A DNA stretch of 54,206 bases. Source: Pricia antarctica. Its GTDB lineage: Bacteria > Bacteroidota > Bacteroidia > Flavobacteriales > Flavobacteriaceae. Positions 9,187 to 30,523 of this stretch are shown piece after piece. Every line of letters starts with the position of its first letter. Position 1 is the stretch's first letter. The translations under genes were made by a program, and so were the position numbers. Under the pieces are notes generated by a model. That model did no database searches and was not told the DNA's origin. It worked only from the letters and a program-made list of their open reading frames with translations. The DNA lies in the NCBI GenBank assembly GCA_011050085.1, contig DRGL01000017.1:1-54206 (forward strand), read 5' to 3'.

Positions 9187-9196
9187 AAAAAGGACA
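9187..9196 (-). promoter_or_regulatory. Late promoter element, copy 1 (tape measure unit)
   Basis: Read on the minus strand this is TGTCCTTTTT. It begins 8 nt after the stop of the upstream gene and 45 nt before the tape-measure ATG. About 18 nt downstream is CCACTTTG, a degenerate -7 box. An AAAGTGG/CCACTTT inverted repeat lies in the spacer. Confidence 0.6.
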
Positions 9197-9204
9197 CTTC
9201 AATT

Positions 9205-9621
9205 TTATTTGACCCGCTCATCGGAGAGCAACTTTACCATATTGCTCAATCTTGTGGTGATACGTTCGCCCCTTATATCGGCTATCTCATCGGCCAGTTG
9301 CTCCAGGGCTCTTGATGATTTATCAAAAAGAAGGTCGAAATGGCTCAGGGGCTTCAAGGTCATGCGTACCCCGTTAGATTTAATGCCCTCGAAACCATAG
9401 TGCTGTATGAAGGTGGCGGTACTAGCATTTATGGTAATGGCATCGAGCTCGCCAGCTTTCATGGTGGCCGTAGCCCCCGCAATGCGTAAAAGTGTACCCG
9501 AGCGTTTTACGGTACTTGTGGCCAATATGGCCTTGAAGTTCCGACGTATGGTTCGAGCGGCCTTTTGACCGGCCTTTTTTTCTTCGCCAAGTATGTCGCG
9601 GTCGAGAATGGAGTCTATCAT
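9205..9621 (-). CDS. Unrecognised phage protein upstream of tape measure (138 aa)
   Basis: A basic, helical protein starting MIDSILDRDILGEEKKAGQ, without membrane segments or known motifs. It lies between a 59-aa gene (4-nt overlap) and the tape measure. That position would fit a tail-assembly or tail-completion protein, but I see no family signature. The next gene starts after a late promoter element, so this is the last gene of the fibre/small-membrane-gene transcript. Confidence 0.7.
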   Translation of the reverse strand: MIDSILDRDILGEEKKAGQKAARTIRRNFKAILATSTVKRSGTLLRIAGATATMKAGELDAITINASTATFIQHYGFEGIKSNGVRMTLKPLSHFDLLFDKSSRALEQLADEIADIRGERITTRLSNMVKLLSDERVK

Positions 9622-9797
9622 GATACGAGATAATTGATGTTCTCGATACGGGCATCGATAACTGCAATTTTATCGGGGTCGGTAGTCTCCCACCGAATTT
9701 CCATAAGGCGTACTACCGAATCGCAGTTCAATATTTCTTGCGTAAATTCCTGTGGGAGGCTTTCAATAATGCCATGTAAGCTTTGCATGTTCTTCAT
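9618..9797 (-). CDS. Small unrecognised phage protein (59 aa)
   Basis: The open frame extends to an ATG at 9851, but the ATG at 9797 (MKNMQSLHGIIESLPQEF) gives an exact ATGA overlap with the stop of the gene before it. That is the coupling used throughout this operon, so 9797 is chosen. The product is acidic and helical, with DPDKIAVIDARIENINYL at the C-terminus. It overlaps the next gene by 4 nt. No family recognised. Confidence 0.6.
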   Translation of the reverse strand: MKNMQSLHGIIESLPQEFTQEILNCDSVVRLMEIRWETTDPDKIAVIDARIENINYLVS

Positions 9798-10108
9798 TCT
9801 AGATCCAGGCGTTTTTTTTGGCGGCGGGTCAGGTTCTTGATCGGTATGCAAATACTGTCCTTTCCTGCAACTTTGGGAACGTAGTCGGTTTTCTCTAGAA
9901 CCGCTGCGGGAAATGTCTCATTGGTAACGCTGCCCACTTTTTTGAACTTGTTCTCGATGGTTTGGGTGATGGTGTTCTCAATTTTTGTGGTCTCCCTTTG
10001 CATCACGTCACGGAACATCTTGGGCATTACAAAATAATTGTTTAGCGCCATGATGATGCCGATAGCGAAGATGTAGATCAGGTTTTCAAGTACGTTTTTC
10101 AGGTTCAT
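9794..10108 (-). CDS. Small membrane protein with N-terminal anchor (104 aa)
   Basis: MNLKNVLENLIYIFAIGIIM carries one transmembrane segment at about residues 8-27. A helical stretch (TTKIENTITQTIENKFKK) and a very basic C-terminus (NLTRRQKKRLDLE) follow. It is in the cluster of small membrane genes between 9.8 and 12.2 kb. A bitopic protein there could be a spanin- or holin-associated lysis component, but sequence alone does not show it. Confidence 0.65.
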   Translation of the reverse strand: MNLKNVLENLIYIFAIGIIMALNNYFVMPKMFRDVMQRETTKIENTITQTIENKFKKVGSVTNETFPAAVLEKTDYVPKVAGKDSICIPIKNLTRRQKKRLDLE

Positions 10109-10109
10109 A

Positions 10110-10523
10110 TTACTTGTCGTTATCGTTTATATACAGATCGAACTTATCCGGGGCGATGGCCAGCATATTGTCAAGGGTTCGACGGCTCCAGATTACGTCA
10201 AGGTTTCCATCGTTATCGATATCCTTAAAGCTGGTGCCTGGTAATTGGCACCCACGCGTATCCCTAAAATAATTGCCCTGATGAACCAGTACCAATTTGC
10301 GGCCATTACTGTCGGAAATATGAAAGTGCCATTTATATTTCTCGCTCCATCGTTTTACGACGCTGTATTTACCTGGCAGAATTCGGCTGATGTTCCGTTT
10401 GTTCTGCCGGTCGGGCAGTTCCAGTATAATACAATGAAAAACCTGCTCATACCCTTCATAGAAATACCAGTGCGCGTGCGTCTGTATCTCGTTGCTGTTT
10501 ATTCTATTGAGGGATGCAATCAC
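10110..10523 (-). CDS. DUF5675-like phage protein (137 aa)
   Basis: The sequence ELPDRQNKRNISRILPGKY followed by WSEKYKWHFHI, NYFRDTRGCQLPGTSF and SRRTLDNMLAIAPDKFDLY closely resembles the DUF5675 family found in Bacteroidota prophages and phages. These small soluble proteins have conserved His/Arg/Gly positions and often lie near lysis genes. No catalytic mechanism is established as far as I know. Here it sits among small membrane proteins, which makes a lysis-related role possible. It is the nearest thing to an endolysin candidate in the prophage, since I see no lysozyme, amidase or NlpC/P60 motif. Confidence 0.75.
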   Translation of the reverse strand: MIASLNRINSNEIQTHAHWYFYEGYEQVFHCIILELPDRQNKRNISRILPGKYSVVKRWSEKYKWHFHISDSNGRKLVLVHQGNYFRDTRGCQLPGTSFKDIDNDGNLDVIWSRRTLDNMLAIAPDKFDLYINDNDK

Positions 10524-10541
10524 AGTTATTAATGATATGTG

Positions 10542-10622
10542 TTAATTCCAGTCTTTAAAATCGGCAGCGTGAACCCATAGGGCCAAAAGCAAAACCACTA
10601 TGGAGAACACGAGTGCCAGCAT
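10542..10622 (-). CDS. 26-aa single-span membrane miniprotein
   Basis: The protein MLALVFSIVVLLLALWVHAA ends DFKDWN. It is almost entirely one transmembrane helix with a short polar tail. The ATG at 10622 follows the stop of the upstream 127-aa gene by 2 nt, and the next gene starts about 20 nt downstream. Tight packing and clean hydrophobicity support a real gene. A holin-regulator or pinholin-like role is only a guess. Confidence 0.6.
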   Translation of the reverse strand: MLALVFSIVVLLLALWVHAADFKDWN

Positions 10623-10624
10623 TG

Positions 10625-11008
10625 TTAATCCTTTTTAAGGTCGTTCAAAAGGTTCGCAACGGCGATGGCCACGGCGAATGCATTTTTAGCGATGTTTTCG
10701 AGTACATCGGGTTCCTTATCGGATGCCAGTTCTTTCGATTTTGCTTCGATCGCCGATTTTAATTCAGCAGTTTCGGCCTCGGTCAAGTCTTGGGCCTCTT
10801 TTAAAGCTTCAGGGCTTGCCATGAACGATAGATAGACATCTTGCAATCGCATTGCATGAACGGCGTCGGAAAAGTTAATTTTCTTGTCGGCCAAGATATC
10901 ACCAACGATATCAAAGGTCTCCAAGGTTCCGAAGGCTACTCTTTTCAAATTTTCGATACCCAATTCTGGAGTTTCGACGTCAAATGGTTCAACTGTTTCA
11001 AAGTGCAT
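10625..11008 (-). CDS. Unrecognised acidic phage protein (127 aa)
   Basis: Starts MHFETVEPFDVETPELGIEN. It is acidic and mostly helical, with ending ENIAKNAFAVAIAVANLLND, which is amphipathic or weakly hydrophobic. No signal peptide. It is followed after 2 nt by the 26-aa membrane miniprotein. The 69-nt gap in front contains a GCCC/GGGC hairpin but no late-promoter element. Function unknown; possibly part of the lysis cluster. Confidence 0.65.
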   Translation of the reverse strand: MHFETVEPFDVETPELGIENLKRVAFGTLETFDIVGDILADKKINFSDAVHAMRLQDVYLSFMASPEALKEAQDLTEAETAELKSAIEAKSKELASDKEPDVLENIAKNAFAVAIAVANLLNDLKKD

Positions 11009-12493: not shown

Positions 12494-12494
12494 C

Positions 12495-14132
12495 TTAACC
12501 TTCCAAATAAAATAATTCTATAAACATCTGTATATCGGACGGACTCAATAAACCGTTAAAAGGGTCTATCGGGTCGGTAGGTTCTTCAATTAAAACCTGA
12601 CCAAACCGCCCGCCCTCTATATCCATCATGACCTGAAAATTTGTTCTAGTGCTGTTAGTGTAGTTCACGCCTTCGATTGTCCAAACAGTATTTATCGCGT
12701 CGGGGTCGGAAACACCGTATTGAGTTTCCAGAGCATCCAACATGCCGTCATTGTCGGCATCTACGTTATTTCCGTTCATCGGTCCTATAATCGGAAAACC
12801 ACCGGCCTCGGCGACCGAATTTTTGTACGTATAATAACCGGTCGCGCCGACCCAATTCGAGCCGCTGTAATATGGAAAGTCACTAAATAATTTATATGAT
12901 GTTTCGGGCCCGTTAATAGCTTCCTCTATTATCCTAGAGTCGGCAGAATCCCTAAAGAGATAAGCGCCTAAAGTCGATAGGCTCTCTTCACTGTCAAGGT
13001 CTACCGCATCGGGTAAGCTTGCATATTCCGATGACATTGGTGTATTAAAAGGTGTTCCAACTACAGTACCTACAGGACTCTGATCGCCGGAAGATTTACC
13101 GTTGCTTATCGCATCCGTTTCGGGCTGACTATCGTTTGTCCTGTTCCAGCCTATTATGCCTTGCAGATAAATATTGGTGTCGTCATATCCTGATTTTACT
13201 TCGGGCCTGATTGTTCTCGTGTCGCCGCCCGCTTTTAAATGCGTTTTTACTATATTGATATTTGTATTCTTTGCCGGGCTTGCTAAACTCCCTAATTCGC
13301 CTATTGCCAAAGTGCCGGGGTAGTATATTCTACAATTGACTATCTCATAATCTCCATGGCTTGAAATCTGCGGGTTTCTTGCGTCATTGTTCTGAAACAA
13401 CGTATTGTAATATGTCCATTTTTCTGCTGAATTGGCTGTGGCATACCCTGTATTAGAATCCAGATTGCCATTAGTGCTTCCTTTAGAATGCCCGCCCTGG
13501 TAGTTTCCGTCTTCGGGATCTCTTGAATTTTCATGAGTAGCAAAATAAAAACATTCGTACACCATTGAATTCTGAATGGTCAGATTTGTAGAAGTGGCGC
13601 CCGACCAGTTTTCATCAGTTGCCCAGCTTATTGAGCAGTTCGCTATCATGATATTATCGCCGGTTGTATTAAGTGCATCCCCTGAATTTTCCGTTATCCT
13701 GCCTTGGCCCCTTCTCAAACGAGTAAATTCGTATACAGTATGATCGCCCGAACTGAACACCATTTGCCCGCCATAATTATTGTTGACAAAATCGCCTTCT
13801 ATGGTTATACCTTGCCCTCCGTCGCGAAACGCGGTCTGGCCGTAAATATGGATATTTCTACCGCTTATCCTTAATTGAGACTGTAGACTTATTTGCCCTG
13901 ACACTTTGAGTATTACGTCAAGATTGCTCTGACCGCTGCCTACTAAAGAACGTAAACTACCTGGACCGCTATCGGCCGTAGTTGTGACAAATACCCTTGT
14001 GCGTGTAGGTTGCCCTACACCGGCCGATTGCCCGTAGCCCTTGGCCCCGTAAAAGGTTGTACCTAAGTCTAGGGTCTGGGATTGGCCTAAAAACACATTG
14101 ATCAAAAAAAATATTACAACCGATTTTTTCAT
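12495..14132 (-). CDS. Secreted pectate-lyase-like (PL1-type) protein (545 aa)
   Basis: A signal peptide (MKKSVVIFFLINVFLGQSQT) is followed by a right-handed beta-helix protein with PL1 pectate-lyase features. These include FYGAKGYGQSAGVG near the mature N-terminus, VTTTADSGPGSLRSLVGSG, then the coils TTGDNIMIANCSISWATDEN and LTIQNSMVYE. Such proteins cleave or bind polygalacturonate-like or other acidic polysaccharides; activity is unproven here. The C-terminus (SPSDIQMFIELFYLEG) has no T9SS sorting domain. It overlaps the fibre-like gene by 4 nt, so the two are made together. It may be a depolymerase linked to receptor recognition, or an enzyme exported at lysis or from the lysogen. Confidence 0.8.
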   Translation of the reverse strand: MKKSVVIFFLINVFLGQSQTLDLGTTFYGAKGYGQSAGVGQPTRTRVFVTTTADSGPGSLRSLVGSGQSNLDVILKVSGQISLQSQLRISGRNIHIYGQTAFRDGGQGITIEGDFVNNNYGGQMVFSSGDHTVYEFTRLRRGQGRITENSGDALNTTGDNIMIANCSISWATDENWSGATSTNLTIQNSMVYECFYFATHENSRDPEDGNYQGGHSKGSTNGNLDSNTGYATANSAEKWTYYNTLFQNNDARNPQISSHGDYEIVNCRIYYPGTLAIGELGSLASPAKNTNINIVKTHLKAGGDTRTIRPEVKSGYDDTNIYLQGIIGWNRTNDSQPETDAISNGKSSGDQSPVGTVVGTPFNTPMSSEYASLPDAVDLDSEESLSTLGAYLFRDSADSRIIEEAINGPETSYKLFSDFPYYSGSNWVGATGYYTYKNSVAEAGGFPIIGPMNGNNVDADNDGMLDALETQYGVSDPDAINTVWTIEGVNYTNSTRTNFQVMMDIEGGRFGQVLIEEPTDPIDPFNGLLSPSDIQMFIELFYLEG

Positions 14133-16723: not shown

Positions 16724-16896
16724 TTTTTCTTCGGGTTGATGCTTATGTTGCCGTTAACTATCTTGATTTCGTAATCACCCATTTCGATACTTTCCGTCTT
16801 AATTTTAAACTTGTCCCTTAACCTAAAACAGTAAAGTAGAACGATGGCTGCCCAAAGAACGATTACCATAATTTTTAAAAACAGTAGTTCGTTCAT
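16720..16896 (-). CDS. 58-aa single-span membrane protein
   Basis: Starts MNELLFLKIMVIVLWAAIVL. One transmembrane helix (about residues 5-24) is followed by a charged tail (RLRDKFKIKTESIEMGDYEI). It is coupled at both ends by ATGA overlaps, with the 163-aa gene before it and the signal-peptide fibre gene after it. That is strong evidence for translation. It may help membrane handling of the exported fibre; that is speculation. Confidence 0.7.
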   Translation of the reverse strand: MNELLFLKIMVIVLWAAIVLLYCFRLRDKFKIKTESIEMGDYEIKIVNGNISINPKKK

Positions 16897-17384
16897 AGGG
16901 CCCTAATTATCGAGTTAGGCGAATAGCTTTCGAGTTTTGTACGGTCGGGACCTTCATAGGTACCTGAAACTATCAGATAGGGGTCTCCGTTGACATCGGT
17001 GACCTTGACATTGAGCACTTCGGTGGCCAGACCAATTTTGCCGGTCGTGGTGGTGGCGGTGGTCTCCTGAATTTCCCATAGGCTGTCGGTGGTATCCCAA
17101 AGGGCGATACGTGCGGATTGGCCTTGGCCTTGGTCGATGATGGCGTAGGCACCTGCAATCGCATTGGGATAGGATGCCTGTAACAATGCCAAACTGGTAA
17201 ATACCCCATAGAACTGATTAGGGGTGTCACCTCCGGTCAATGCATCTAGCTTATCGGCATAATCTTCAAGAAGTTCGCATATTTCGGCAAAGTCTTCGGC
17301 GGTGGCCTCTTGTAAACGGTTGCCCACCGGTCGAACGTTGACCTTGTTCTTGAGTAAATTAGTGGGGCGCTTTGCCAATGCCAT
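16893..17384 (-). CDS. Phage protein upstream of the fibre gene (163 aa)
   Basis: Starts MALAKRPTNLLKNKVNVRPV. It is a soluble protein with a helical N-terminal part (FAEICELLEDYADKLDAL) and a beta-rich C-terminal part (YAIIDQGQGQSARIALWDTT). The latter resembles the carbohydrate- or fibre-linked beta-sandwich segments seen beside tail fibres. It begins 41 nt after a late promoter element, so it heads the fibre, PL1-like and small-membrane-gene transcript. The motif RPVGNRLQEA is similar to RPIGNQTQEV in the 96-aa protein at 34702-34992. Function unknown; probably neck or fibre-attachment. Confidence 0.65.
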   Translation of the reverse strand: MALAKRPTNLLKNKVNVRPVGNRLQEATAEDFAEICELLEDYADKLDALTGGDTPNQFYGVFTSLALLQASYPNAIAGAYAIIDQGQGQSARIALWDTTDSLWEIQETTATTTTGKIGLATEVLNVKVTDVNGDPYLIVSGTYEGPDRTKLESYSPNSIIRAL

Positions 17385-17425
17385 GCTACAAGCTTTTTGT
17401 AAAAATTGGGATTATCGGGACGTAG

Positions 17426-17435
17426 AAAAAGGACA
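17426..17435 (-). promoter_or_regulatory. Late promoter element, copy 2 (fibre and small-membrane-gene unit)
   Basis: TGTCCTTTTT on the minus strand. It begins 2 nt after the stop of the upstream 324-aa gene and 41 nt before the next ATG. CAATTTTT lies at 18 nt spacing as a weak -7 candidate. Confidence 0.55.
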
Positions 17436-17437: not shown

Positions 17438-18412
17438 TTAAAATGAAACGACGCTCTTGGTATTCATAGGCATTACGAAGACCGCAGCATCCTTTTTGAT
17501 ATAATCGGGGAATGCGACAGGGTTGGCCTCCATCAAGGCGATCGCTTTTTTATAATACTGCTCAGCGGCCACCAGGCGTTCATCTTTTACACGGTGCAGC
17601 TGTGACTCGCCCAATGGCTTCACTTTGTATCCCGGAAACTCCTCAATCTTTTCATAGATGCCGTTCGATGTGAGTTCGAAAGTGCCACTGTGCACCGCTT
17701 TGTACACGGTGTAATTGACCTGAGCGGCCTGTAACCACTGCAATGCCATGTACTGGATGTATTCTGGGGCATCGGTCTCGGTACCTTCCGCAGGTTTCAC
17801 CGTATTGTTCAGCAGTTCGATGGTGGCCAAGTTTAGCTTTGCGGTAAAGAACTGGTGGTGCACCTCTAGCATGTAGGGTCGAAGTGCCAAGAACGTCTTT
17901 CGGCTGTTCGATATATTGAACCATCGATTGAAGGTATCGGTGCGGTCTACGAAAAGTTCACGGAATATGGTATAGCCTTCGGATGCTTTCCAAGCCGCGA
18001 AAGTTTCGCCTTCGGTCTGTTCCATAATTTTCAGGGCCTCATCCAAAGCCGTGAATCCGGCATCGATGAAGCTGCGTCGTAGGTCTCGAATCTGCCACCA
18101 CTCCGCCGCCTTCGAATATTCGCTTTCGGAAACCGCGATGCCCGAATCGGATATCTGAACGTTGGCCATGGGCAGATATAGAAACCATGCGAGGTTGGCG
18201 GAAGCTTCCTCCAGAAGATTGTAAACTTCCAAAGCAACGGGGTCTTCAGGTTCAGCTTGGGAGTAACTGTCGTACATGGTACGACCAATCAGGCTCTTGA
18301 TGTATTTACGCTCCGCCTGCTTGACATAGGGCTCGACGCTTGACCAATCAAGGTTGCGGTTTACGGCAACGTGCTTCTTTACTTCGGCGATGGCATCGAT
18401 TATTGTCGGCAT
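17438..18412 (-). CDS. Conserved Bacteroidota-phage head-tail protein (324 aa; DUF6712-like)
   Basis: The frame is open from 18499, but ATG 18412 (MPTIIDAIAEVKKHVAVNRN) overlaps the portal stop by 1 nt (TAATG) and is chosen. It contains VEPYVKQAERKYIKSLIG and a helical core, with paired Trp/Tyr segments (SANLAWFLYLPMANVQIS). It matches what I recall as the DUF6712 family, found next to portal genes in Bacteroidota phages. Immediate coupling to the portal gene suggests a head-completion or neck adaptor role. Family recall is moderate; function is inferred from position. Confidence 0.7.
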   Translation of the reverse strand: MPTIIDAIAEVKKHVAVNRNLDWSSVEPYVKQAERKYIKSLIGRTMYDSYSQAEPEDPVALEVYNLLEEASANLAWFLYLPMANVQISDSGIAVSESEYSKAAEWWQIRDLRRSFIDAGFTALDEALKIMEQTEGETFAAWKASEGYTIFRELFVDRTDTFNRWFNISNSRKTFLALRPYMLEVHHQFFTAKLNLATIELLNNTVKPAEGTETDAPEYIQYMALQWLQAAQVNYTVYKAVHSGTFELTSNGIYEKIEEFPGYKVKPLGESQLHRVKDERLVAAEQYYKKAIALMEANPVAFPDYIKKDAAVFVMPMNTKSVVSF

Positions 18413-19749
18413 TACATAGTAGTTTGGGTTCCTGTTGGGTTCTTGTCCAAAGTGGTAAGTTCGGTATTGGCGAAATCGCCCTCCAAATCCGGGTCCCATC
18501 CGTTATAGTCACGGATAAGGTTCCACGGTTCGAGCGTGATCTCGCGTTTCGTCTTGAACATACTGGTGAGAATACTAAAAGCCTCGCGCTTATCGCTTCC
18601 GCTCCCGGTGTTCATCTTGCCGCCGGGAATACCTGCGCCGAGTAACGAGGGATCAACGCCCATGGAGAACATAATCTCGGAGTTTGCGGCCGATGCTTCC
18701 GGCAGGTACGAGCCATCCTTCAAAACATCATCGATGGCGGTGACCTCGATACCCTTTACCCATTCGCCGTTCATATCCTTATAAACTACCGATTGAATGG
18801 ATTTTCCCGCATTCTTGTTTCCGGATAAGTGGTCATCGATGGCCTCGGTCAGCTGGTCGCGCACGAGCTTCTTCTTTTCGGCGGAGTAATCTTCCCATTC
18901 GTTCTTGTACATCCTCAGAAAATATTCTTCGGATATATAGACCATGTACTTTAGGTTCAACTGGTTCTCGAAGAGATGCTTTTTGTATTCGGGGATGGAG
19001 TTGGCAACGTCGAGCCATCCGTTATGGTAGACCGCATGCCAATCGACGGATGGATAATAGGTTTCATCCATCAAGGGATAGAAGATGGGCATGATAAATT
19101 TGTAAATGCCTTTTTCCTTACAGTATTCCTTCACCTGGTCCGCATGCCAATAGCTGTCGATTACGGGAATCTTGTCTACATAATCGCCATCGACATCGGT
19201 ATTGTAGGTCCAGTTATGGCAGAAGTATACATTATCGATGATACCGGTTCTCTCGTTGATTTCCTGAAAGCGGATTTTCGCGGTCGGCTGGCGGCGGACG
19301 CTATGTATTTTCTTTTGGTCGTTGGTAAGTATAAATTCCGGATAGGCGATATAGAACGTCTCCAGGTCGGCAATGGACTCTACCCAGAAGCGGTTCATCT
19401 TATTGAACTTGTGGAAGGTGTTGATCTCGGCGTTATCCTTTAGGGAAATAATGCGCTTGTCACGCTTGCCTTCGTCATTCGCTTCATCTTTATACAGATG
19501 GAAACCCTGTCCGTAATGGGTCGATTTCAATACACGGAGTCCCGCACCACCGGCACCGTTCAACTTGAGCGCCTTCAGGAATTTCTGTGGATATTGGTTG
19601 TCATCGCCCCACTTGGCCACTTTATTGGTATTACCGACCTGCTTTTCGGTCTTTACGACGGTGTGGTCTTTCTTGCTTCCGCCGAAAGCGAAGGCGGCAC
19701 CGCTACCAAGGCCAAAGGCCACATCGCCATGACGTATGAATTTACCCAT
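18412..19749 (-). CDS. Phage portal protein (445 aa)
   Basis: Forms the dodecameric DNA channel at one capsid vertex. Evidence: WGDDNQYPQKFLKALKLNGA near the N-terminus, a mixed alpha/beta core, and portal-like NSEIMFSMGVDPSLLGAGIP followed by MNTGSGSDKREAFSILTSMF. The latter is the conserved segment of Bacteroidota-phage portals, reminiscent of NFS-type portals. No membrane segments. It overlaps the preceding 117-aa gene by 1 nt (19749) and the following head-tail gene by 1 nt. Confidence 0.82.
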   Translation of the reverse strand: MGKFIRHGDVAFGLGSGAAFAFGGSKKDHTVVKTEKQVGNTNKVAKWGDDNQYPQKFLKALKLNGAGGAGLRVLKSTHYGQGFHLYKDEANDEGKRDKRIISLKDNAEINTFHKFNKMNRFWVESIADLETFYIAYPEFILTNDQKKIHSVRRQPTAKIRFQEINERTGIIDNVYFCHNWTYNTDVDGDYVDKIPVIDSYWHADQVKEYCKEKGIYKFIMPIFYPLMDETYYPSVDWHAVYHNGWLDVANSIPEYKKHLFENQLNLKYMVYISEEYFLRMYKNEWEDYSAEKKKLVRDQLTEAIDDHLSGNKNAGKSIQSVVYKDMNGEWVKGIEVTAIDDVLKDGSYLPEASAANSEIMFSMGVDPSLLGAGIPGGKMNTGSGSDKREAFSILTSMFKTKREITLEPWNLIRDYNGWDPDLEGDFANTELTTLDKNPTGTQTTM

Positions 19750-20102
19750 TAGTAGATTACTTTTTGTCCGTTAAGCTCGATAATGAACCGGATGTTGATT
19801 CTTTTGATATCGCCCTGTGGCAGAACCTTGATGTTACGGGTCTTGTTCTCGTAGTGGTTCGGGTTCTTGCGCATGATGGGCCGCGGTTTGTTGACGGTCT
19901 GCAACGATCTTATGCTGTCAACATGGGGGTTTTCTTCTGCCATGACCATCTTGGCCTTTTCGTACTGCCTGATGCTGCCACCCGTTTTGCTGTTGCGCTG
20001 AAAGGTGCGCACCTTAATGGAAAAGGGTACGGCCCTGCCGTCTGGACCGAGGGTCTTCATGAGGTCGAGGGCATCTCGAAGGTATATGGTTTCTTCTGGC
20101 AT
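19749..20102 (-). CDS. Conserved small phage protein before portal (117 aa)
   Basis: Starts MPEETIYLRDALDLMKTLGP. It is strongly basic, with RPIMRKNPNHYENKTRNIKV in the middle and beta-rich ends. It shares its first/last base with the portal gene. It begins 30 nt after a late promoter element that follows a strong terminator, so it heads the portal transcript. No family recognised; a head-tail joining or portal-accessory role is likely from position. Confidence 0.65.
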   Translation of the reverse strand: MPEETIYLRDALDLMKTLGPDGRAVPFSIKVRTFQRNSKTGGSIRQYEKAKMVMAEENPHVDSIRSLQTVNKPRPIMRKNPNHYENKTRNIKVLPQGDIKRINIRFIIELNGQKVIY

Positions 20103-20132
20103 GGGGGCAATTTGGGGAAAGGGAGGGAGTGA

Positions 20133-20142
20133 AAAAAGGACA
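20133..20142 (-). promoter_or_regulatory. Late promoter element, copy 3 (portal unit)
   Basis: TGTCCTTTTT, extended by one T, on the minus strand. It starts 28 nt downstream of the bidirectional terminator and 30 nt before the ATG. CAAATTGC lies at about 19 nt spacing. Confidence 0.6.
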
Positions 20143-20221: not shown

Positions 20222-20602
20222 TTATTTTTTGTAATTGAATCTTGGCGGCTCTATAAATTTTGACCTTGGCATTAAATAAACCTTTGACTGTGGCTCTAGC
20301 ATTGTCTCCGAAATCTTGAACTGCAAAACCTTTTCTAATTCAGTGGCCGTTTCATTATGGTTATCACCAACACCTACGATAACAACCTTCACTCCAAATT
20401 CTTCAGCAGCTGCCAAAACAGAGCTTAGAGCAGTAGCATTCGAATCTGGGGCAATTACAATCACATCAGCATGGGACATTTCAGTACTTAATTCTAATGG
20501 CAAATCATCAAAGGGATGTTCGTAGTTTTTTTCCATAGCAGTTACGGTGCTCAGACCAATCAGAAAGAGACTGGCCAATAAAATTTTACTTAGGTTTTTC
20601 AT
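20222..20602 (-). CDS. Secreted unrecognised protein in its own transcript (126 aa)
   Basis: A signal peptide (MKNLSKILLASLFLIGLSTV, cleavage near VTA-ME) leads to a 100-aa mature domain. That domain is Rossmann-like: HADVIVIAPDSNATALSSVL and FGVKVVIVGVGDNHNETATE. This resembles NYN/PIN-like or DUF88-like strands, although a signal peptide would be odd for those nucleases. It is monocistronic: a late element is at 20663 and a terminator at 20170. It lies between structural genes, so it is a cargo or moron gene expressed late. Function unknown; the NYN resemblance is weak. Confidence 0.7.
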   Translation of the reverse strand: MKNLSKILLASLFLIGLSTVTAMEKNYEHPFDDLPLELSTEMSHADVIVIAPDSNATALSSVLAAAEEFGVKVVIVGVGDNHNETATELEKVLQFKISETMLEPQSKVYLMPRSKFIEPPRFNYKK

Positions 20603-20662
20603 AATACTCTTTTAAGGGTTAATTAATTGAATGACTCTAAATTATTTGAATTAGCAATTTCA

Positions 20663-20672
20663 AAAAAGGACA
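20663..20672 (-). promoter_or_regulatory. Late promoter element, copy 4 (secreted-protein unit)
   Basis: TGTCCTTTTT, extended by one T, on the minus strand. It starts directly after the upstream stop codon and 60 nt before the ATG. TAATTTAG lies at 18 nt spacing and matches the -7 consensus except one base. Confidence 0.6.
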
Positions 20673-20673: not shown

Positions 20674-21177
20674 TTACTTGACACATATCTCCGGACCATC
20701 CAACCAATCATCGACATTGACCTTCAGTGGTTCGTTACCCATGATACTACCAACGAAACGATATCCGTACAAATGCTCGTTAAAAACTGGGCCTACCTTG
20801 GCATAGCTAACTGTCTCAACCTGAAACTTATTATATAAAAAATGTACCGGCAAGGTTGCATCATGTTTCATCCGGGCAATAACACTGAGTCCAATAGTCT
20901 CGGAATCCGCTAATCTTTGATTCTGTTCGTCATAGTCCCCATGGCGTGGCTTCGTGTAAATCGTAAAAGCAAATGTTCTATCGTTGACGGTCTGCTGTCT
21001 GCTACTTCCGGATAGATCTCCTTCATGAGACTCCAAAACCAAACAGGGTATCTCTGCAGTTCCCCTGAAGGCACCTTGAATTTCGGTCAGGTCCATTCGA
21101 AAGTAACCGGCTATCTTTTTGTGTTTAGTGGCCAGATATTGAAAGTAGTCCGTAATTACCTTGTGGTCGATCTGCAT
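20674..21177 (-). CDS. Unrecognised phage structural-type protein (167 aa)
   Basis: Starts MQIDHKVITDYFQYLATKHK. It is a mixed alpha/beta soluble protein with TFAFTIYTKPRHGDYDEQNQ and C-terminal SIMGNEPLKVNVDDWLDGPE. The layout (helical N-terminus, beta strands, size) resembles tail-terminator or tail-completion proteins, but I do not recognise the family. It shares one base with the upstream 265-aa gene and is followed at once by a late promoter element. Confidence 0.65.
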   Translation of the reverse strand: MQIDHKVITDYFQYLATKHKKIAGYFRMDLTEIQGAFRGTAEIPCLVLESHEGDLSGSSRQQTVNDRTFAFTIYTKPRHGDYDEQNQRLADSETIGLSVIARMKHDATLPVHFLYNKFQVETVSYAKVGPVFNEHLYGYRFVGSIMGNEPLKVNVDDWLDGPEICVK

Positions 21178-21974
21178 TATTTCTTCTGTTTTCTAAAGTT
21201 CTTGATGTCGTTGTTGATGATATTCAGGAAATCATAGGCTAAAACATTGTTGGTCTGCATCAATTTTGACGGATCGCCGTCGATTTTCTGCAGAACGATC
21301 TCACCAAATGATACATATTTCCCGGGCTTAGGCTTTTGCATACCTTCGATTTCGGTCGGTTTCGAAAATATCAACGGAAAAGTTTCGGCTATATGGTTCC
21401 GGCACCCTTCATAAGTGGCACCAATGGCAAGCTTCGTCTTTAATGGGAGGGCTTGAAAGATATCCGCTCGGGCATCAACAGCTTGTTTCACGAATTCTTT
21501 CCTAATATCCATGTCGTTCTGCTCATCCGCAACGGGTCGGTACAGTGTGGCGCAAAGAACCGTCAACCATATAGGTTGCTTGGTCTGTTTCCATTTATAG
21601 AAAACGGCATCGGCAAAACTGAACTCCCCGATAGTTATATTTCTGATACGTTGCCCAGGTGAATGGAAAAGCAACCCGTCTACTTTTACTGAAGGTATGA
21701 ACTTGGTACGGTCGGCAGTATCATATAAGAACTTGACCAACGGAGCGAACGCCTTGGGCTGCATTTCTTTGAGCGCGACTCTAATTGACTGCCATTTATT
21801 GCCACGCAGGAGCTCCTTTGATAGCTGAAGGAATAGCCGGGCCGATGTTTCTCCTTCGGTCTGGGGCGAATCTTTAACGATCTGCTGGTATAAATGAAAC
21901 TGGAAGGCAATATTCTGAAGCTGATCGGTAGATAAATCGTTCCACTTCTGCGGAATAGATAAGTTGATTTGCAT
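21177..21974 (-). CDS. Unrecognised phage protein (265 aa)
   Basis: Starts MQINLSIPQKWNDLSTDQLQ. It is mainly helical, contains FADAVFYKWKQTKQPIWL, and ends with a basic tail (NIINNDIKNFRKQKK). It is soluble, with no signal peptide. It heads a two-gene late unit that starts after a terminator and a late promoter element. The helical composition and its place near head-tail genes fit a tail assembly chaperone or neck protein, but this is only positional. Confidence 0.65.
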   Translation of the reverse strand: MQINLSIPQKWNDLSTDQLQNIAFQFHLYQQIVKDSPQTEGETSARLFLQLSKELLRGNKWQSIRVALKEMQPKAFAPLVKFLYDTADRTKFIPSVKVDGLLFHSPGQRIRNITIGEFSFADAVFYKWKQTKQPIWLTVLCATLYRPVADEQNDMDIRKEFVKQAVDARADIFQALPLKTKLAIGATYEGCRNHIAETFPLIFSKPTEIEGMQKPKPGKYVSFGEIVLQKIDGDPSKLMQTNNVLAYDFLNIINNDIKNFRKQKK

Positions 21975-22018
21975 TGCCCGGTAATTAGATAGGCAATATC
22001 TTGAAGTAACAGCGGGTT

Positions 22019-22028
22019 AAAAAGGACA
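22019..22028 (-). promoter_or_regulatory. Late promoter element, copy 5
   Basis: TGTCCTTTTT on the minus strand. It overlaps the end of the terminator at 22026-22054 by 3 nt and lies 44 nt before the ATG of the 265-aa gene. GATATTG lies at about 19 nt spacing. Confidence 0.6.
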
Positions 22029-23795: not shown

Positions 23796-25325
23796 CTACG
23801 AGCCGATGTTGGAGTTGGGCAGGTCTTCGGTCGACTTGCCTCCTAGAATAAACTTCTCCCAGAACAATGAGAACAATGGGTAGTCAAACGTATCGGAGAA
23901 GTGTGTGGCATGCTCCTGCTCTACGAGCTCACGGCGTTCACTACGTTTGTCCTTCTGAATGCCCTTGGGACCATCGATAGCCTCGGCATGCTCCATGGAG
24001 ATAATGAGGTCTTTGCAATTACCCTCGTTTATGCGTATGGCGGGTAATTGTCCACGTCCATCACGCTTTAGCATCACATTGATAAGCCTGAACTTATCGA
24101 TATGGTCAGGGTTCTTGCCCACGTCCATCATGTGCACCTTCCACCCTGCATTGCGCAATAGGGTCGCAGCCTGCTCAGAGAAAGTGAGCTTACTGTTTGC
24201 TACCCGGTTGTTACCATTACGGTCACCATAGAATTTGATGATCTTAGTTGGATAGCTATCATAATAGGGTATAAACTTTTCTGTGAACAAATCATCGAGT
24301 ATCGCAGGGCTCTTCACGAAGAAACAGTTGAGCACCTTGTAAACATCACCCTGCAGCTGTGATACAGTAAGACTGTTGATGCTGGCGTTATAGTCAACGC
24401 TTATAAGCAACGGCATGGATGGATTAAAGTCCCTATCCTGCTTACAGTTGAAATAGCGTCCGTCCAATTGGGTGAGATTGCCCACATTGTGCAAACCCTC
24501 TAGGTAATCGTTGTCATGATCGGTGTAATAGTGGATATCGGGATTGAGTTGCGGATAGAAACCACCCACTACTTCTTTGGGCTGTATGTTGAGCATTTCG
24601 GCATTGTACAGCAGATCACTTGAATAGGATTGCTTCATATAGTCGAAATAGTCGGGTCTAAGGTTCTCCATGTTACACCTGGCATCCGCTTTCAAAAAAA
24701 GTGTCTTGGCTGGATCCTGTTTGCACATTTCCTCATATTTCAAGACCCAATTGCCTTTTTTGGTAACTGGCATCGAAGTCGCATAGGTTTCAGAGAACAG
24801 ATAAGGATTGTCCTTCCAAATAATTTCCTTTGGGATGGCCCTATTGGTATTTTTTACCGAAATAGCCAATTTATCCTCATCCTGAAGGGCGGTCTCATCC
24901 GAAATAAAGCCTGAGGAGTTGATACCTCGCCCGCTATTGGCATTGTCCAGGCTTACCAACTGAAAAATGGTGCCATTGCTCCAGTGAATCATGTTCTCCC
25001 ATCGGTCAGGTGTCTCATGCGGCAATTTGAAGCCCATTTTCTTCCCTGCCCTTGTGCCTACAACATAGTCTACCCCTTCATAAAATCCGAGCATATCGAG
25101 ACCTGCCTTTGTAGCCTTTAGAGTATTCGATAAAATTTGGGCGTACGTATTTCCAACTAGGATAAATGTTGCCCTGGGCATGTGCTTTACCGCCATGGCC
25201 ATGAACCAGGCTAAAAGAGTGGATTTTCCGGTTCCACGACCGAAAACGAACATCTTGACCTTCTGTTGGGCCATGATGCCCACCAATTGGGCGGGATTGA
25301 AGTTTATATTTTTATCGTTCTCCAT
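23796..25325 (-). CDS. terL: Terminase large subunit (509 aa)
   Basis: Packages phage DNA. The ATPase part has Walker A FGRGTGKST (about residues 28-36) and Walker B with catalytic Glu in SGFISDETA (about 135-143). The nuclease part has the RNase H-like acidic sites LLISVDYNAS and IKFYGDRNGNN and a downstream Asp in HFSDTFDYP. Its start overlaps the preceding small-terminase candidate by 14 nt, which suggests coupled translation. It is the last gene of the unit headed at 26624. Long family match and all catalytic motifs make this secure. Confidence 0.95.
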   Translation of the reverse strand: MENDKNINFNPAQLVGIMAQQKVKMFVFGRGTGKSTLLAWFMAMAVKHMPRATFILVGNTYAQILSNTLKATKAGLDMLGFYEGVDYVVGTRAGKKMGFKLPHETPDRWENMIHWSNGTIFQLVSLDNANSGRGINSSGFISDETALQDEDKLAISVKNTNRAIPKEIIWKDNPYLFSETYATSMPVTKKGNWVLKYEEMCKQDPAKTLFLKADARCNMENLRPDYFDYMKQSYSSDLLYNAEMLNIQPKEVVGGFYPQLNPDIHYYTDHDNDYLEGLHNVGNLTQLDGRYFNCKQDRDFNPSMPLLISVDYNASINSLTVSQLQGDVYKVLNCFFVKSPAILDDLFTEKFIPYYDSYPTKIIKFYGDRNGNNRVANSKLTFSEQAATLLRNAGWKVHMMDVGKNPDHIDKFRLINVMLKRDGRGQLPAIRINEGNCKDLIISMEHAEAIDGPKGIQKDKRSERRELVEQEHATHFSDTFDYPLFSLFWEKFILGGKSTEDLPNSNIGS

Positions 25326-25875
25326 CGACGGGCTCGTGAGGGATATCTTCGACCTGTAGATTGTTCATATCGATCGGACCTTTTGACAATGCTTTTACAA
25401 CGGCAGCTTCGAACCTTTTGGATACTTTAATCTGATAATTCTGGGATTTTATCTTTTCAGGGTCAAAACTGAATTCCTCCGCTCCGAAATCGAGAAGTTT
25501 ATCGATTTGTTCCTCCGCCTTGAGCACCAGTTCCCATTCCTTCGCTTTGGTGAGCTTCTTGATCAACCTTCTTTTACGTTCGATCTGAATGAAACGCCAG
25601 GCGTCCTTATTGAATTTTTTGACGCTCCCAAAAAGCATTTCGGCCATGGCGATGATGCGATAGGCGGTTCCCTGCGAAATTTCATAGAGCTTCATCAGTT
25701 TCTTTACCGTTTTGGTGATGCTATGGTCATTGATGAGCATTGTAAAGGCGGCCTCGCACCGCTTCTTCTGCAATTCCTCATTTTCGGATAGCGTTATGGC
25801 ACGTTCATCGAAATAGGAGGCCATGATATTCTCCAGGGTGCTATCCTTCCGGATTTGGCGCATCATGTCGCTCAT
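25312..25875 (-). CDS. Putative terminase small subunit (187 aa)
   Basis: Helical and basic, with a helix-turn-helix-like stretch at about residues 45-80 (SITKTVKKLMKLYEISQGTA). A charged coiled coil follows (ERKRRLIKKLTKAKEWELVL), then a C-terminal tail. Directly upstream of and overlapping the large subunit gene, it has the expected size and architecture of a DNA-recognition small subunit. The assignment rests on position and HTH-like sequence, not on a recognised family. Confidence 0.7.
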   Translation of the reverse strand: MSDMMRQIRKDSTLENIMASYFDERAITLSENEELQKKRCEAAFTMLINDHSITKTVKKLMKLYEISQGTAYRIIAMAEMLFGSVKKFNKDAWRFIQIERKRRLIKKLTKAKEWELVLKAEEQIDKLLDFGAEEFSFDPEKIKSQNYQIKVSKRFEAAVVKALSKGPIDMNNLQVEDIPHEPVDGER

Positions 25876-26624
25876 ATCAACTTCTTGATTTTTTCCAAAT
25901 TGACCTTATGTTGGTGCAGGGTGTTCTCGCTCTTACGTATCGATGATTCTATGAGCAGCCGGTCGTGTTTGTTTGTTTCGGTTTCCAAATCGGAGTAACG
26001 TTGATCGACCCGTTTCGATATCTTGGTGATGTTCGCCTCCAAGTTTCGCTTTTTACGCCATAGCGATTTGGGATCCAGTTTGCTGAAATCATCCTCCGGA
26101 ACAGTGAGAAGGGTTCGATGTTTCTTCCAATGGTGGAGCTCCTCCCAAATGGTATCGCGCTCCTCATCGAGCTGAAAAATATTGATCATAATCGGAAGAG
26201 CTTTATCCGATGCATTGTCGGGAAGGTCGTTTAGAGCGAACTTCAGCTCAATCATATCATAGAAAATCTTCTGTGCCCTCAAAAAACGGGGCCGTAATTC
26301 AGCGGGAAGGTCGCCCAGGCGTATTCCTGTAAATTCCTGCTTTTGGCTTTCGGTGGCCAATTGCGTACGGACGTGCTCTGTGTTGATTTCCTTTTGATCG
26401 GGATGGGCTTCTTTCACGACGATTACCGGTTCGGATTTCTTTACCGGCTTCGGCATCGAACCGTATTTTCGCAGTTCGGAAACCAATGTGCTCATGTTCC
26501 GATTGTTCTTGCCCCGGTTCAGGTTCTTAAGTATACGGGTCTTCTTTACCGGCAATGAGGCATATATGGCCACACCCTGATAATAATCCTTAGAACCGCT
26601 GAACCACGCTTTGATAGCATCCAT
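25872..26624 (-). CDS. Helical phage protein heading the terminase unit (250 aa)
   Basis: The frame opens at 26648, but ATG 26624 (MDAIKAWFSGSKDYYQGVAI) is preferred: it gives 30 nt to the late element and a plausible N-terminus. The N-terminus is similar in style to a short tagged or leader helix. The remainder is charged, with long coiled coil at about 180-250 (NLEANITKISKRVDQRYSDL). It overlaps the small terminase by ATGA. No family recognised; possibly a packaging accessory or scaffold-like protein. Confidence 0.6.
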   Translation of the reverse strand: MDAIKAWFSGSKDYYQGVAIYASLPVKKTRILKNLNRGKNNRNMSTLVSELRKYGSMPKPVKKSEPVIVVKEAHPDQKEINTEHVRTQLATESQKQEFTGIRLGDLPAELRPRFLRAQKIFYDMIELKFALNDLPDNASDKALPIMINIFQLDEERDTIWEELHHWKKHRTLLTVPEDDFSKLDPKSLWRKKRNLEANITKISKRVDQRYSDLETETNKHDRLLIESSIRKSENTLHQHKVNLEKIKKLI

Positions 26625-26654
26625 GAAACAAAGGTGAACCAATGGCAACAGTCA

Positions 26655-26664
26655 AAAAAGGACA
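26655..26664 (-). promoter_or_regulatory. Late promoter element, copy 6 (terminase unit)
   Basis: TGTCCTTTTT, extended by one T, on the minus strand. It starts 4 nt after the preceding terminator and 30 nt before ATG 26624. CACCTTTG lies at about 18-19 nt spacing and fits nAnnTTTG. Confidence 0.65.
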
Positions 26665-28163: not shown

Positions 28164-28179
28164 GGCCTGTTTTTAAAGA

Positions 28180-29178
28180 TTATGGTACAACTACGCCATC
28201 GAAGCCGTAGTACTTACTGGTCAGGGCTGTATCACCAAGACCGTATTCGGCATCGGTAAAGTTCGCGATGAAGACCATCTCGTTGATCAAGAAATCATAG
28301 CCTTTCCAGAACTCCATAAAGACCTTGATCTTGTAGTCCTGAATTTGAATGGACTTCACGACCGGTGGCGAATCGAACTTATCGATAAGCTTCGCAAGGT
28401 TCCCCTCTGGGGTGGCGACGATCAGGTCGGTCTCCAGACCTGGCAACCATACGATCTCACGTTTGCCCAATCGGGTCTTCATCGTATCGCTCTGAAACTT
28501 GTTCTGGCCGAACTGCTCTTCATACTGTAAGATGTAACGCTCGGCATTGTTCTCGCTCATGAAAATCTTTTTGATCTTCTTCTTCATCTTCGTTGGAAGC
28601 TTGCGTTCGAAAGCGGTCACCTGGTCGACGATGTTCGTATCGGTCAGGGCGGTCATCGGTATTTTGAACGCCGGGTGAGCGGCATCCGCCAATGCGTCCA
28701 GACAGATTTGTGCGAATCCGTTTAGGGAATTGCCGTATTGGCCATCCGCATTGTTGGCATCGTACACACCGTTGATCGATAGGTCCTCAAGGTCGTCGAT
28801 GACCCTTGGCCCCAATTCCTCTTGCATGATGTACTGCGAGATGGGCATCAAGAACATTTGCTTGGTCTCATCGTAGTACTCCGCGAAGTAACTGCCCAAA
28901 ATATCGGAAGGAATGATGGGTAGGTTGACCTTCTGGTGGTAGTTTTTTAGGATTTTGGATTTGATCTCCAATTCGCCCAACTCCTGCCAAACGGCCTTGA
29001 AACCTTGAACTACATGGCCCAATAGGGTATGCGCCGAAGGATAATGGCCCTTCACCTTGGTGATGGTCTTACAATGCTTGTCCAAGGTGATATCCGAATG
29101 GTATATCAGCGCGGGGACTAACTGGGGATTGTGCTTTAGGTGTTGGCCTAATTCTTTGGCTACGTCTTCTATTTCCAT
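28180..29178 (-). CDS. Major capsid protein (332 aa, HK97-like fold expected)
   Basis: Starts MEIEDVAKELGQHLKHNPQL. It is directly downstream of the S49 protease/scaffold gene, has the expected length, and shows typical capsid features: VNLPIIPSDILGSYFAEYYD, FIANFTDAEYGLGDTAL and an extended C-terminus. The run NADGQYGNSLNGFAQICLDA fits capsid P-domain or loop segments in Bacteroidota-phage major capsids. Together with protease, connector and terminase neighbours this is the best capsid candidate, and no other gene in the late region competes for it. Confidence 0.85.
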   Translation of the reverse strand: MEIEDVAKELGQHLKHNPQLVPALIYHSDITLDKHCKTITKVKGHYPSAHTLLGHVVQGFKAVWQELGELEIKSKILKNYHQKVNLPIIPSDILGSYFAEYYDETKQMFLMPISQYIMQEELGPRVIDDLEDLSINGVYDANNADGQYGNSLNGFAQICLDALADAAHPAFKIPMTALTDTNIVDQVTAFERKLPTKMKKKIKKIFMSENNAERYILQYEEQFGQNKFQSDTMKTRLGKREIVWLPGLETDLIVATPEGNLAKLIDKFDSPPVVKSIQIQDYKIKVFMEFWKGYDFLINEMVFIANFTDAEYGLGDTALTSKYYGFDGVVVP

Positions 29179-29184
29179 GGTAAT

Positions 29185-30462
29185 TTATTTGATAGTTTGA
29201 TAAATTGAACAGTCTAGGTCGACGTAATCGGGCATACCGGTCTTGTCGTCTTCCGCTTTTTTGCCGGAAGTATGGGTAGCCCCGGGCTTGGCGCCCAAAG
29301 CGGTAATCTTTGTCTGATAGGCCTCAATGGCACCTGCAACGTCGGTAACGGCCTGGTCCCCGGATAGCTCCAGTTCTTCGTTCGCCTTGTCGACCAAAGC
29401 TTGGTTCGCGATGACTGATGCATCGGCGGCGGTCTTCAAATCGGTCTGTGCCTGTACGGCGGCGGCGGCATCCGATTCGAGGGTCGCAATTCTTGTCTCG
29501 ACGGCCTCGGCCTCGGTTTCCGTTAGCAATACACCGTTGGCAGCTTCGCCCTCGGCAAATGTTTTACCGATTACGGTCTCTATCTTTGGATAATTCTTAC
29601 TCATCTGAGTTGATTTTGGATTTTGTTTTTCGGATAGTTCAAAGACTCTCTGTATAGCGGTATCCAATGTTCCCAGCGCATCTACCAGTCCCATTTCCAA
29701 GGCTTTTTCTCCGGAATAGGTAGCACCTTTGAACACTTCGCTATTGATATTCGGCCGAGCGGCCTGCATATCTGAAATAAAATTATCGACCAATGGGTCG
29801 AGCTCTTCTTTTATATATGAACCATAAAATTCTTCGCCCTTCATGGCGTCACGGTACGATTTGTTCTTCTCGGTACTTTTGGTGGCATACATCGTATGGA
29901 CCTTCACGCCCTGCTTTTCGTAAAAACCGTCAAGGTCGAACAGCTGCGAATAGGCCCCGATGCTTCCGATGGCCTCCGCACGTTTGTTGGCGATGATTTC
30001 GGATGAAGCGCTACCGATGTAATATGCAGCCGAACACATCAGTCCGTCCGTATAGGCGACGACCGGTTTAGGGTAGTCCATTAGGTAATCGTAAAATTCA
30101 GGGGTTCCGTAGGCCTGGCCTCCTCCGCTATCGATATCGAGTACGACACCTGCGATAGAATCATCACCCTTAAGGCGGTCAAGCTGACGCATCATGCTCT
30201 TGGTACCCTGAGGCCCACAAAATTGGTCATGCTTGACTATGGGGTTTTTAATGTTCAAAACGGCTACCCTGGTATCCGTAGAACCGGGGGAAGCTTGAAC
30301 ATCGGCAAGTCGTACTAAAGAAGGTTTCTTTTTGACATCATCTTTCTCACCGAGCGTATTACCGGTCAGAATTCCCATGACCAAAGGCATGTGGCCTTGG
30401 GCATAATTCTGCTCAATGTACCACGGGCGATTGAATAAGCTATGAAGATTTGATACTGACAT
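29185..30462 (-). CDS. S49-family prohead protease fused to scaffold (425 aa)
   Basis: Residues about 60-260 form a SppA/ClpP-type S49 protease. The catalytic Ser is in LMCSAAYYIGS (S144), with the Lys about 51 residues later (TKSTEKNKS, K195), as in SppA. The oxyanion region is VVLDIDSGGGQAYG. Residues about 285-425 are Ala/Glu/Thr-rich helix (AVETRIATLESDAAAAVQAQ), the composition of a scaffold. An in-frame ATG at 29604 (MSKNYPKIETVIGKTF, residue 287) marks the start of that part and could give a separate scaffold as in lambda C/Nu3. It matures the capsid. It starts 51 nt after late element 7. Confidence 0.93.
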   Translation of the reverse strand: MSVSNLHSLFNRPWYIEQNYAQGHMPLVMGILTGNTLGEKDDVKKKPSLVRLADVQASPGSTDTRVAVLNIKNPIVKHDQFCGPQGTKSMMRQLDRLKGDDSIAGVVLDIDSGGGQAYGTPEFYDYLMDYPKPVVAYTDGLMCSAAYYIGSASSEIIANKRAEAIGSIGAYSQLFDLDGFYEKQGVKVHTMYATKSTEKNKSYRDAMKGEEFYGSYIKEELDPLVDNFISDMQAARPNINSEVFKGATYSGEKALEMGLVDALGTLDTAIQRVFELSEKQNPKSTQMSKNYPKIETVIGKTFAEGEAANGVLLTETEAEAVETRIATLESDAAAAVQAQTDLKTAADASVIANQALVDKANEELELSGDQAVTDVAGAIEAYQTKITALGAKPGATHTSGKKAEDDKTGMPDYVDLDCSIYQTIK

Positions 30463-30513
30463 GTGAACCTAAGTGATTATCATGCCACAATACTATACAT
30501 ATAATGAACCCGC

Positions 30514-30523
30514 AAAAAGGACA
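30514..30523 (-). promoter_or_regulatory. Late promoter element, copy 7 (protease-capsid unit)
   Basis: TGTCCTTTTT on the minus strand. It begins 1 nt after the stop of the upstream gene and 51 nt before the protease ATG. TAGTATTG lies at 18 nt spacing. Confidence 0.6.

Follow-up and report, generated by a model that had tools for sequence, protein, structure and literature searches.

A repeated element ahead of the late genes of a Pricia antarctica prophage and a candidate late-promoter system in Bacteroidota phages

Seven copies of a 10-mer in the late region of the prophage

The DNA analyzed here, called the window at its full length, is a stretch of 54,206 nucleotides (nt) from Pricia antarctica (GCA_011050085.1, contig DRGL01000017.1, positions 1 to 54,206, forward strand), and the subject of this work is the 10-mer TGTCCTTTTT, seven copies of which lie among its late genes, together with a small gene whose product may read them. 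The window contains a prophage, with a tyrosine integrase gene (1423-2616, plus strand) beside a tRNA-Leu gene, and PHROG matches were found on the minus strand for the head protease, the terminase, the portal protein (a weak match) and the tape measure protein. Further upstream are genes for a primase-like protein, a methyltransferase and a transcription regulator of the LuxR/GerE type by Pfam (41180-41779, minus strand); this last gene is located at the start of the early region and was judged to encode an early regulator, and it is the rival candidate discussed below. The candidate late regulator, a protein of 152 amino acids (aa), is encoded at 31166-31624 on the minus strand, upstream of the first late promoter element and separated from it by one gene for a 178-aa protein.

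The seven copies, all on the minus strand, partition the late genes into seven putative transcription units, as the first-pass annotation of this DNA had proposed. The first copy (30514-30523), with the -7-like box TAGTATTG 18 nt past the 10-mer (30488-30495), precedes the head protease gene (29185-30462), a gene in the position of the capsid gene (28180-29178) and the genes that follow. The second copy (26655-26664; box CACCTTTG at 26629-26636, with an ATG 4 nt downstream) is located ahead of a 258-aa open reading frame, likely starting at the ATG at 26624, the gene at 25312-25875 and the terminase gene (23796-25325). The third copy (22019-22028; box AGATATTG at 21994-22001) abuts a GC-rich hairpin and heads a unit of a 265-aa gene (21177-21974) and a 167-aa gene (20674-21177), and the fourth (20663-20672; degenerate box at 20637-20644) precedes the gene for a 126-aa protein (20222-20602). 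The fifth copy (20133-20142; box CCAAATTG at 20108-20115, with an ATG 5 nt downstream) is followed by a 117-aa gene (19749-20102), the portal gene (18412-19749) and a 353-aa gene (17438-18499). The sixth (17426-17435; degenerate box at 17401-17408) is followed by a 163-aa gene (16893-17384), the gene for an 864-aa protein, a gene for a pectate-lyase-like protein and further small genes. The seventh (9187-9196; box CCACTTTG at 9162-9169) precedes the tape measure gene (6289-9141) and further genes down to position 2613.

Exact copies of TGTCCTTTTT were found at precisely the positions listed in the first-pass annotation and on the minus strand only, where 0.32 copies in the window would be expected by chance, and none of 100 dinucleotide shuffles reached seven. 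When one mismatch was allowed, seven additional scattered matches appeared (4 plus, 3 minus), giving a total of 14 against 7.5 expected, a number reached by 1 of the 100 shuffles; these additional matches are about what chance gives. Outside the window, the 5.48-Mb genome contains 36 copies, which is background, and the whole-genome total of 43 is lower than the 53 obtained for the reversed pattern as a control. The comparison with shuffled sequence that had been suggested as a check thus gave a clear excess within the window, with the remaining genome at background.

The placement of the copies noted earlier also held, for the most part. From the 3' end of the 10-mer to the start codon the distance is 30-60 nt for all seven, and the preceding stop codon lies 1-8 nt upstream of four of them, with no hairpin evident there. 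The copies at 20133, 22019 and 26655 are 52-79 nt from the preceding stop and adjoin GC-rich inverted repeats that are terminator-like, the hairpins having been judged by eye. The -7-like box proposed earlier was found downstream of the copies, and it ends in TTG at five of the seven, but the spacing of 18-19 nt given for it was not correct, the 8-base-pair box starting after a spacer of 17 or 18 nt.

Two of the late genes are of interest in their own right. The pectate-lyase-like protein encoded among the late genes at 12495-14132 on the minus strand (phrog_27797) is perhaps a virion enzyme directed against a polysaccharide. The 126-aa protein (20222-20602, minus strand) had no match in six relatives; its N-terminus looks secreted, its gene has a late promoter element to itself, and it looks like an inserted extra gene.

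The element ahead of orthologous units in close relatives

The terminase led to the prophages G299/L011, G030 (Galbibacter marinus), G285, G273, G100 and G123. It also matched 30 phage records, many of them near-duplicates, of which seven were included in the analysis, and among these records was the phage isolate Leef_1. Eight phages, the window included, thus entered the comparison of orthologues. A 7.8-kb contig (L009) has a terminase identical to that of the window.

The portal unit gave the most uniform picture: the element is located 27-30 nt ahead of the start of the 117-aa gene in all eight phages, with seven exact copies and one mismatch in G123. An exact element precedes the 258-aa/terminase unit in six of the eight phages (the exceptions are G285 and G123), the 163-aa gene in five of the six phages in which this gene was found (the exception is G100), the protease unit in four (window, G299, G030 and Leef_1, with one mismatch in G123) and the 265-aa unit in four (window, G299, G030 and G100, with one mismatch in Leef_1). 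In G285, G273 and G100, where the protease is divergent, exact copies lie approximately 210-245 nt ahead of its first codon that could be aligned. For the tape measure gene, an exact copy is found at most 350 nt upstream in three of the eight phages (window, G299 and G100), in G030 and Leef_1 a copy precedes the gene ahead of the tape measure gene instead, and G285 and G273 also have copies ahead of tail genes. The variant TGTCCTATTTTA is present in five copies in G123.

Rearrangements of these genes were informative. In all three of G285, G273 and G100, the small gene and the terminase gene are inverted and have their own inverted copy of the element, back to back with the portal copy, and in G030 and G100 the 265-aa unit occupies a place in the gene order different from that in the window and has retained its copy. 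The element thus relocates and flips together with its gene, which is the behavior expected of a promoter. The search of related prophages for the 10-mer with a spaced -7 box, another check suggested earlier, therefore recovered it before the same genes, on the same strand and at the same spacing.

A separate cluster of five TGTCCTTTTT copies in contig 9 of G299 (L171, 131500-139000) was considered and set aside: the copies lie in repeats with near-identical flanks and have, by eye, no TTG at promoter spacing, and this cluster is probably a chromosomal repeat unrelated to phage promoters.

Fixed spacing across Bacteroidota phages

The wider comparison was based on 34 phage segments, namely the window, 19 segments reached via the terminase and 14 reached via the 152-aa protein. 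The rule GTCCT-N26/27-TTG was derived from the window and G629 and tested on the other 32 segments, which were held out. In these, GTCCT and TTG were paired 84 times with an offset of 27 and 29 times with an offset of 26, whereas the remaining offsets had a mean of 10.3 pairs; the opposite strand of the same segments had 21 and 22 pairs at offsets 27 and 26 and no peak, and the signal is therefore confined to the strand of the late genes. Among 62,464 pairs of 5-mer and offset, GTCCT at offset 27 ranked first, and four of the five runners-up were shifted versions of it. With all 34 segments included, the discovery ones among them, GTCCT was the first of 1,024 5-mers at promoter spacing, with 122 occurrences versus 20.8. 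It was again first in 20 further loci fetched via the regulator homologue of phage BT-TP2 (18 IMG/VR contigs, some of them near-duplicates, and two Porphyromonas gingivalis phages), with 41 versus 5.5 occurrences (p 3e-19); since the phages share ancestry, the sites are not independent and such p-values are overstated, although the shape of the peak is unaffected. The control phages 11b, B124-14, FCL-2 and phi10:1, in which GTCCT is infrequent, had no spacing peak and no regulator above the inclusion threshold.

Similar words emerged from k-mer counts that made no use of the motif. Words like TGTCCTTTT were at or near the top in G259, G143 and G266, and less clearly in G096, where GTCCTTTT occurred four times among upstream k-mers; the terminases of these four are 23-30% identical. 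In phages of other host families, GTCCTA words were found in G629, G360 and G682, and weakly in G303. The k-mer search without spacing returned no element in G682b, G682c or G680, and in MT835542 it also gave nothing, whereas the spacing test found five pairs there. The earlier proposal of the 10-mer as a late-promoter element is supported by the spacing peak in held-out phages, but what is essential in the 10-mer is its core, GTCCT, and this core is not universal. With the spacing unchanged, GTCAC was found in laban6-1 and G012, GTAAC in G117 and GTCTT in 6H. The Bacteroides phage BT-TP2 uses TGTCCTTTT, like Flavobacteriaceae phages, and G012 and G117, which are from the window's own host family, have these cores other than GTCCT; judged by its distribution among these sequences, the core tracks the phage and not the host family.

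A phage recorded from outside the phylum, the Microcystis phage Mea-Yong924-1 (L105, MZ447863.1), has the regulator and promoter-like sites with the extended word ACACGCTGTCCTTTT. The same word is found in L133 (G398), a phage from a genome that belongs to the window's class, and so the true host of the Microcystis phage may be a Bacteroidota companion.

Anatomy of the predicted promoters

The consensus of the 89 sites with the N27 spacing is TGTCCTTTt-N19-TAnn(T/A)TTG. The TTG of the box was fixed by the selection of sites, and at the unselected TA positions of TAnnTTTG the sequence logo had 0.38 bits for T and 1.11 bits for A. The lower half of these sites therefore matches the promoters of the host sigma factor, sigma-ABfr, whose -7 box is described as TAnnTTTG centred on -7, with a variable spacing between the -33 and -7 boxes, in published work (PMC7366714). 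The upper half does not conform to a -33 TTTG at variable spacing as the sole upstream element, and GTCCT at a spacing of 26 or 27 stands out. With the box centred on -7 as in that account, the 10-mer falls at about -39 to -30, and so it covers the position of the -33 TTTG and extends upstream of it, as had been noted from the window.

The boxes are often close to start codons. In 40 of the 122 sites, an ATG in any frame begins 5-6 nt past the G of the box, where approximately 4.7 would be expected, and the same distance is found at two of the seven sites in the window. An ATG at this distance would place the start of the messenger RNA (mRNA) within about 3 nt of the AUG (about 1-3 nt), which suggests that nearly leaderless mRNAs are made from about a third of such promoters across the phages. 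For comparison, approximately 3.7% of 5' untranslated regions are shorter than 10 nt in B. thetaiotaomicron (PMC7366714), and in a survey that included 37 Bacteroidetes/Chlorobi genomes, one of these was found to have leaderless genes, with a caution by the authors that numbers in this group may be underestimates (PMC3160421).

A candidate regulator upstream of the late genes

Profile searches detected a homologue of the 152-aa protein in all 34 phage segments, including all 19 reached via the terminase. Among 299 genomes of the host family, the carriers of terminase relatives and the carriers of the regulator were the same 12 genomes, and the other 287 matched neither; in the class sample, the regulator was found in 13 of 395 genomes, and a weak match in G255 was absent with a wider profile. 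The homologues had E-values from 9e-7 down to about 2e-52 in iterated searches with profile hidden Markov models, members of the profile included, and at 10-30% identity to the window protein they are related to it by common ancestry.

The protein itself belongs to no Pfam or NCBIfam family, and it does not match phrog_21888, a family with no function recorded that is matched by 5 of 25 homologues. AlphaFold2 models had a mean predicted local distance difference test score of 89.7 for the window protein and 82.4 for a second member with 16% identity, and in both models the main helices and strands succeed one another in the same way, ending in a long helix and shorter C-terminal helices. No solved structure in the PDB matched the fold of these models at E <= 0.001, and a sequence search of the PDB gave no lead either. 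Among the viral models of BFVD, the Leef_1 homologue was the sole match at E <= 0.001; matches of the T4 gp33 type had E-values of 0.48-3.6 and were not significant.

The first-pass annotation had suggested a phage activator or an appropriated RNA polymerase for the element, and for the activator a specific candidate can now be named from the comparison of genomes: the late promoters are probably read by the 152-aa product of 31166-31624. The regulators of laban6-1, G012, G117 and 6H, the phages with variant cores, form one clade (support 99/91), and this fits a regulator with changed specificity. The neighboring 178-aa gene (30525-31061) was rejected as the regulator gene: the window protein had no match in 13 segments and one in G450, and a possible counterpart in G629, recognized by position only, sits behind a promoter element.

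Several further observations concern the surroundings of the regulator gene. An exact 10-mer is located shortly before it in G100 (L040:1928-1937), where autoregulation is possible, and shortly after it in BT-TP2 (L104:6028-6037) and in several IMG/VR contigs (for instance, L160:8364-8373). The contigs G613:C49, G577:C56, G426:C36 and G627:C17 (L074, L077, L084 and L141) end approximately 0.2-2 kb past the regulator homologue, as would be seen if assembly tended to fail where the late genes begin.

Discussion

This work suggests that the seven copies in the window constitute the upper part of late promoters of the phage, which would combine them with a host -7 box and be opened late by a phage protein, and we assign a probability of roughly 0.78 to this reading. 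On the same genomic evidence, we regard it as very likely that such sites make up a genuine late-promoter class with a wide distribution among Bacteroidota phages, from those of Flavobacteriaceae, Bacteroides and Porphyromonas to those of other families in the window's class. The earlier proposal of phage late promoters is supported by the relatives, by the offset peak in held-out phages and by the host-type -7 box; from these sequence data we infer promoter activity, its timing, the identity of the binding protein, its role in activation as opposed to another role, and the start of the transcripts.

In the mechanism that we propose, the lower half of the promoter would be the host -7 box, which is similar to TAnnTTTG and is recognized by the Bacteroidota primary sigma factor, and the 10-mer with its core GTCCT would occupy the place of the weak -33 TTTG of the host and the positions just upstream of it. 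The GTCCT element would be bound by a phage protein, for which the 152-aa product is the most likely candidate, and contact of this protein with RNA polymerase or with sigma would open the late promoters late in infection and switch on seven late units in one direction. Since the regulator is encoded where the early region ends, ahead of the first late promoter, early transcription would make the regulator and the late units would then be turned on.

Several observations weigh against this reading. Two of the seven boxes in the window, those of the copies at 17426 (CAATTTTT) and 20663 (TAATTTAG), are degenerate and without TTG, and no element precedes the 265-aa gene in G285 and G273, nor in G123. 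Applied to phages one at a time, the spacing test is weak: in 14 of the 34 segments GTCCT ranks first among the 5-mers (one of them a tie), mostly without individual significance, the pairs number no more than three in some phages, and at least three chance pairs occur on the opposite strand in 7 of the 34 segments. G096 has five pairs on its late strand and six on the other. Of the 30 phages with enough downstream sequence, three (G682b with two pairs, G682c and G680 with none) gave no convincing site. Furthermore, 14 of the 34 segments were found via the regulator, and the rows of the regulator profile A3 came in part from 11 of the 12 genomes of the host family, all except G117, so that the co-occurrence of regulator and phage is partly by construction. 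The clade of phages with variant cores may also reflect general phage descent rather than the specificity of the regulator.

The alternative that survives best is that the elements are late promoters but are read by another factor, such as the LuxR-type protein (41180-41779), a host regulator or an alternative sigma factor. The element sits where region 4 of a sigma factor would bind, and the LuxR-type protein was found in 18 of the 34 segments, among them all seven close relatives of the window (for Leef_1 a fragment was found, rotation of the record having cut the gene). No LuxR homologue was found in BT-TP2, which is titled a complete genome (45 kb), or in MT835542 (40.8 kb), and both have the promoters and a homologue of the 152-aa protein; the other 14 segments without a LuxR match cover the early region partly or not at all. 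A host factor is disfavored by the frequency of the 10-mer in the host genome, which does not exceed background, and by the core, which follows the phage, as the comparison of BT-TP2 with G012 and G117 illustrates. We therefore regard another reader as unlikely, and the 152-aa protein as the better candidate.

It is far less likely that these are ordinary host promoters with an unusually conserved -33 region and no phage-specific factor. Such an explanation would account for the -7 box of the host type and for the T-run of the 10-mer, which overlaps the position of the -33 TTTG. It does not agree with the fixation of GTCCT at two adjacent spacings, when the spacing in host promoters is variable (PMC7366714), nor with the replacement of GTCCT by GTCAC, GTAAC or GTCTT within one phage clade. 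Least likely of all is another purpose of the elements, as terminators, translation signals, or packaging or recombination sites: three of the seven window copies do follow hairpins and the 10-mer ends in a terminator-like T-run, but the four copies just past a stop codon have no evident hairpin, phages of the GTCCTA type have no T-run, and the terminator, translation and packaging readings were rejected in view of these points and are opposed by the fixed spacing to a TAnnTTTG-like box, by the orientation with the downstream gene, inverted genes included, and by the variable distance to the start codon, which speaks against a translation signal.

In temperate phages, a small phage protein activates several late operons in the case of Mu C, P2 Ogr and the ArpU-type activators, and the system described here resembles these in its several late operons, but the candidate regulator has no family match, and its element is short and not palindromic. 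In antitermination of the lambda Q type, there is one late promoter and the element is located at or after the start site, whereas here several elements are predicted to act, each one heading a separate unit and followed by a -7-like box. The T4 gp33 family of late co-activators is represented in BFVD by entries named "late promoter transcription accessory protein" and "late-transcription coactivator", but these are the matches with the insignificant E-values given above. Compared with host promoters of sigma-ABfr (TTTG at -33, TAnnTTTG at -7), the -7 box is alike, and the GTCCT core at fixed spacing and the predicted short leaders differ.

The repeated phage-specific element ahead of late operons agrees with late promoters driven by a phage-encoded factor. 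Regulators by which a phage redirects the host polymerase to one set of promoters are well established, and of these T4 MotA is the nearest in layout. The MotA box, centred at -30, replaces the host -35 element while the host -10 element is kept (PMC2988021). In the same manner, the phage element in Bacteroidota would lie over the upstream region of the host promoter, here at -33, with the lower box of the host, here at -7, kept. The likeness does not extend to sequence and spacing, since the MotA box is (a/t)(a/t)(a/t)TGCTTtA at 12 +/- 1 base pairs from the -10 element and the element here is GTCCT, 22 nt (in the N27 class) from the start of the 8-base-pair box. The host sigma factor and the class of genes, which here is late and structural, are also different, as is, as far as tested, the protein, for which no MotA match was found among the Pfam, PDB sequence or PDB fold results.

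Among the papers listed in searches of open-access literature, none described how late genes are activated in Bacteroidota phages. The main text of the paper on the phages Leef and Ingeline, in the portion available, contains neither "promoter" nor "regulator", and among the matches listed for papers containing the 10-mer string, none is on Bacteroidota phages by its title.

The system might be a shared late system of temperate phages in Bacteroidota, in which a small protein of unrecognized fold alters the promoter choice of the host polymerase with its primary sigma factor, perhaps by replacing sigma region 4, and in which many late mRNAs start almost at the AUG, coupling late transcription to leaderless translation; this broader picture is tentative, and we hold it to be possible rather than probable. 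The rule GTCCT-N26/27-TTG predicts late promoters and start sites in marine, gut and oral phages, including Leef_1, Ingeline_1 and BT-TP2, with variant cores in laban6-1 and 6H, and through it a protein family that had no assigned function acquires one that can be tested. Pairs of regulator and core would form a natural series for studies of specificity at the unusual sigma factor of Bacteroidota, and the promoters might be a source of inducible promoters for Bacteroidota hosts.

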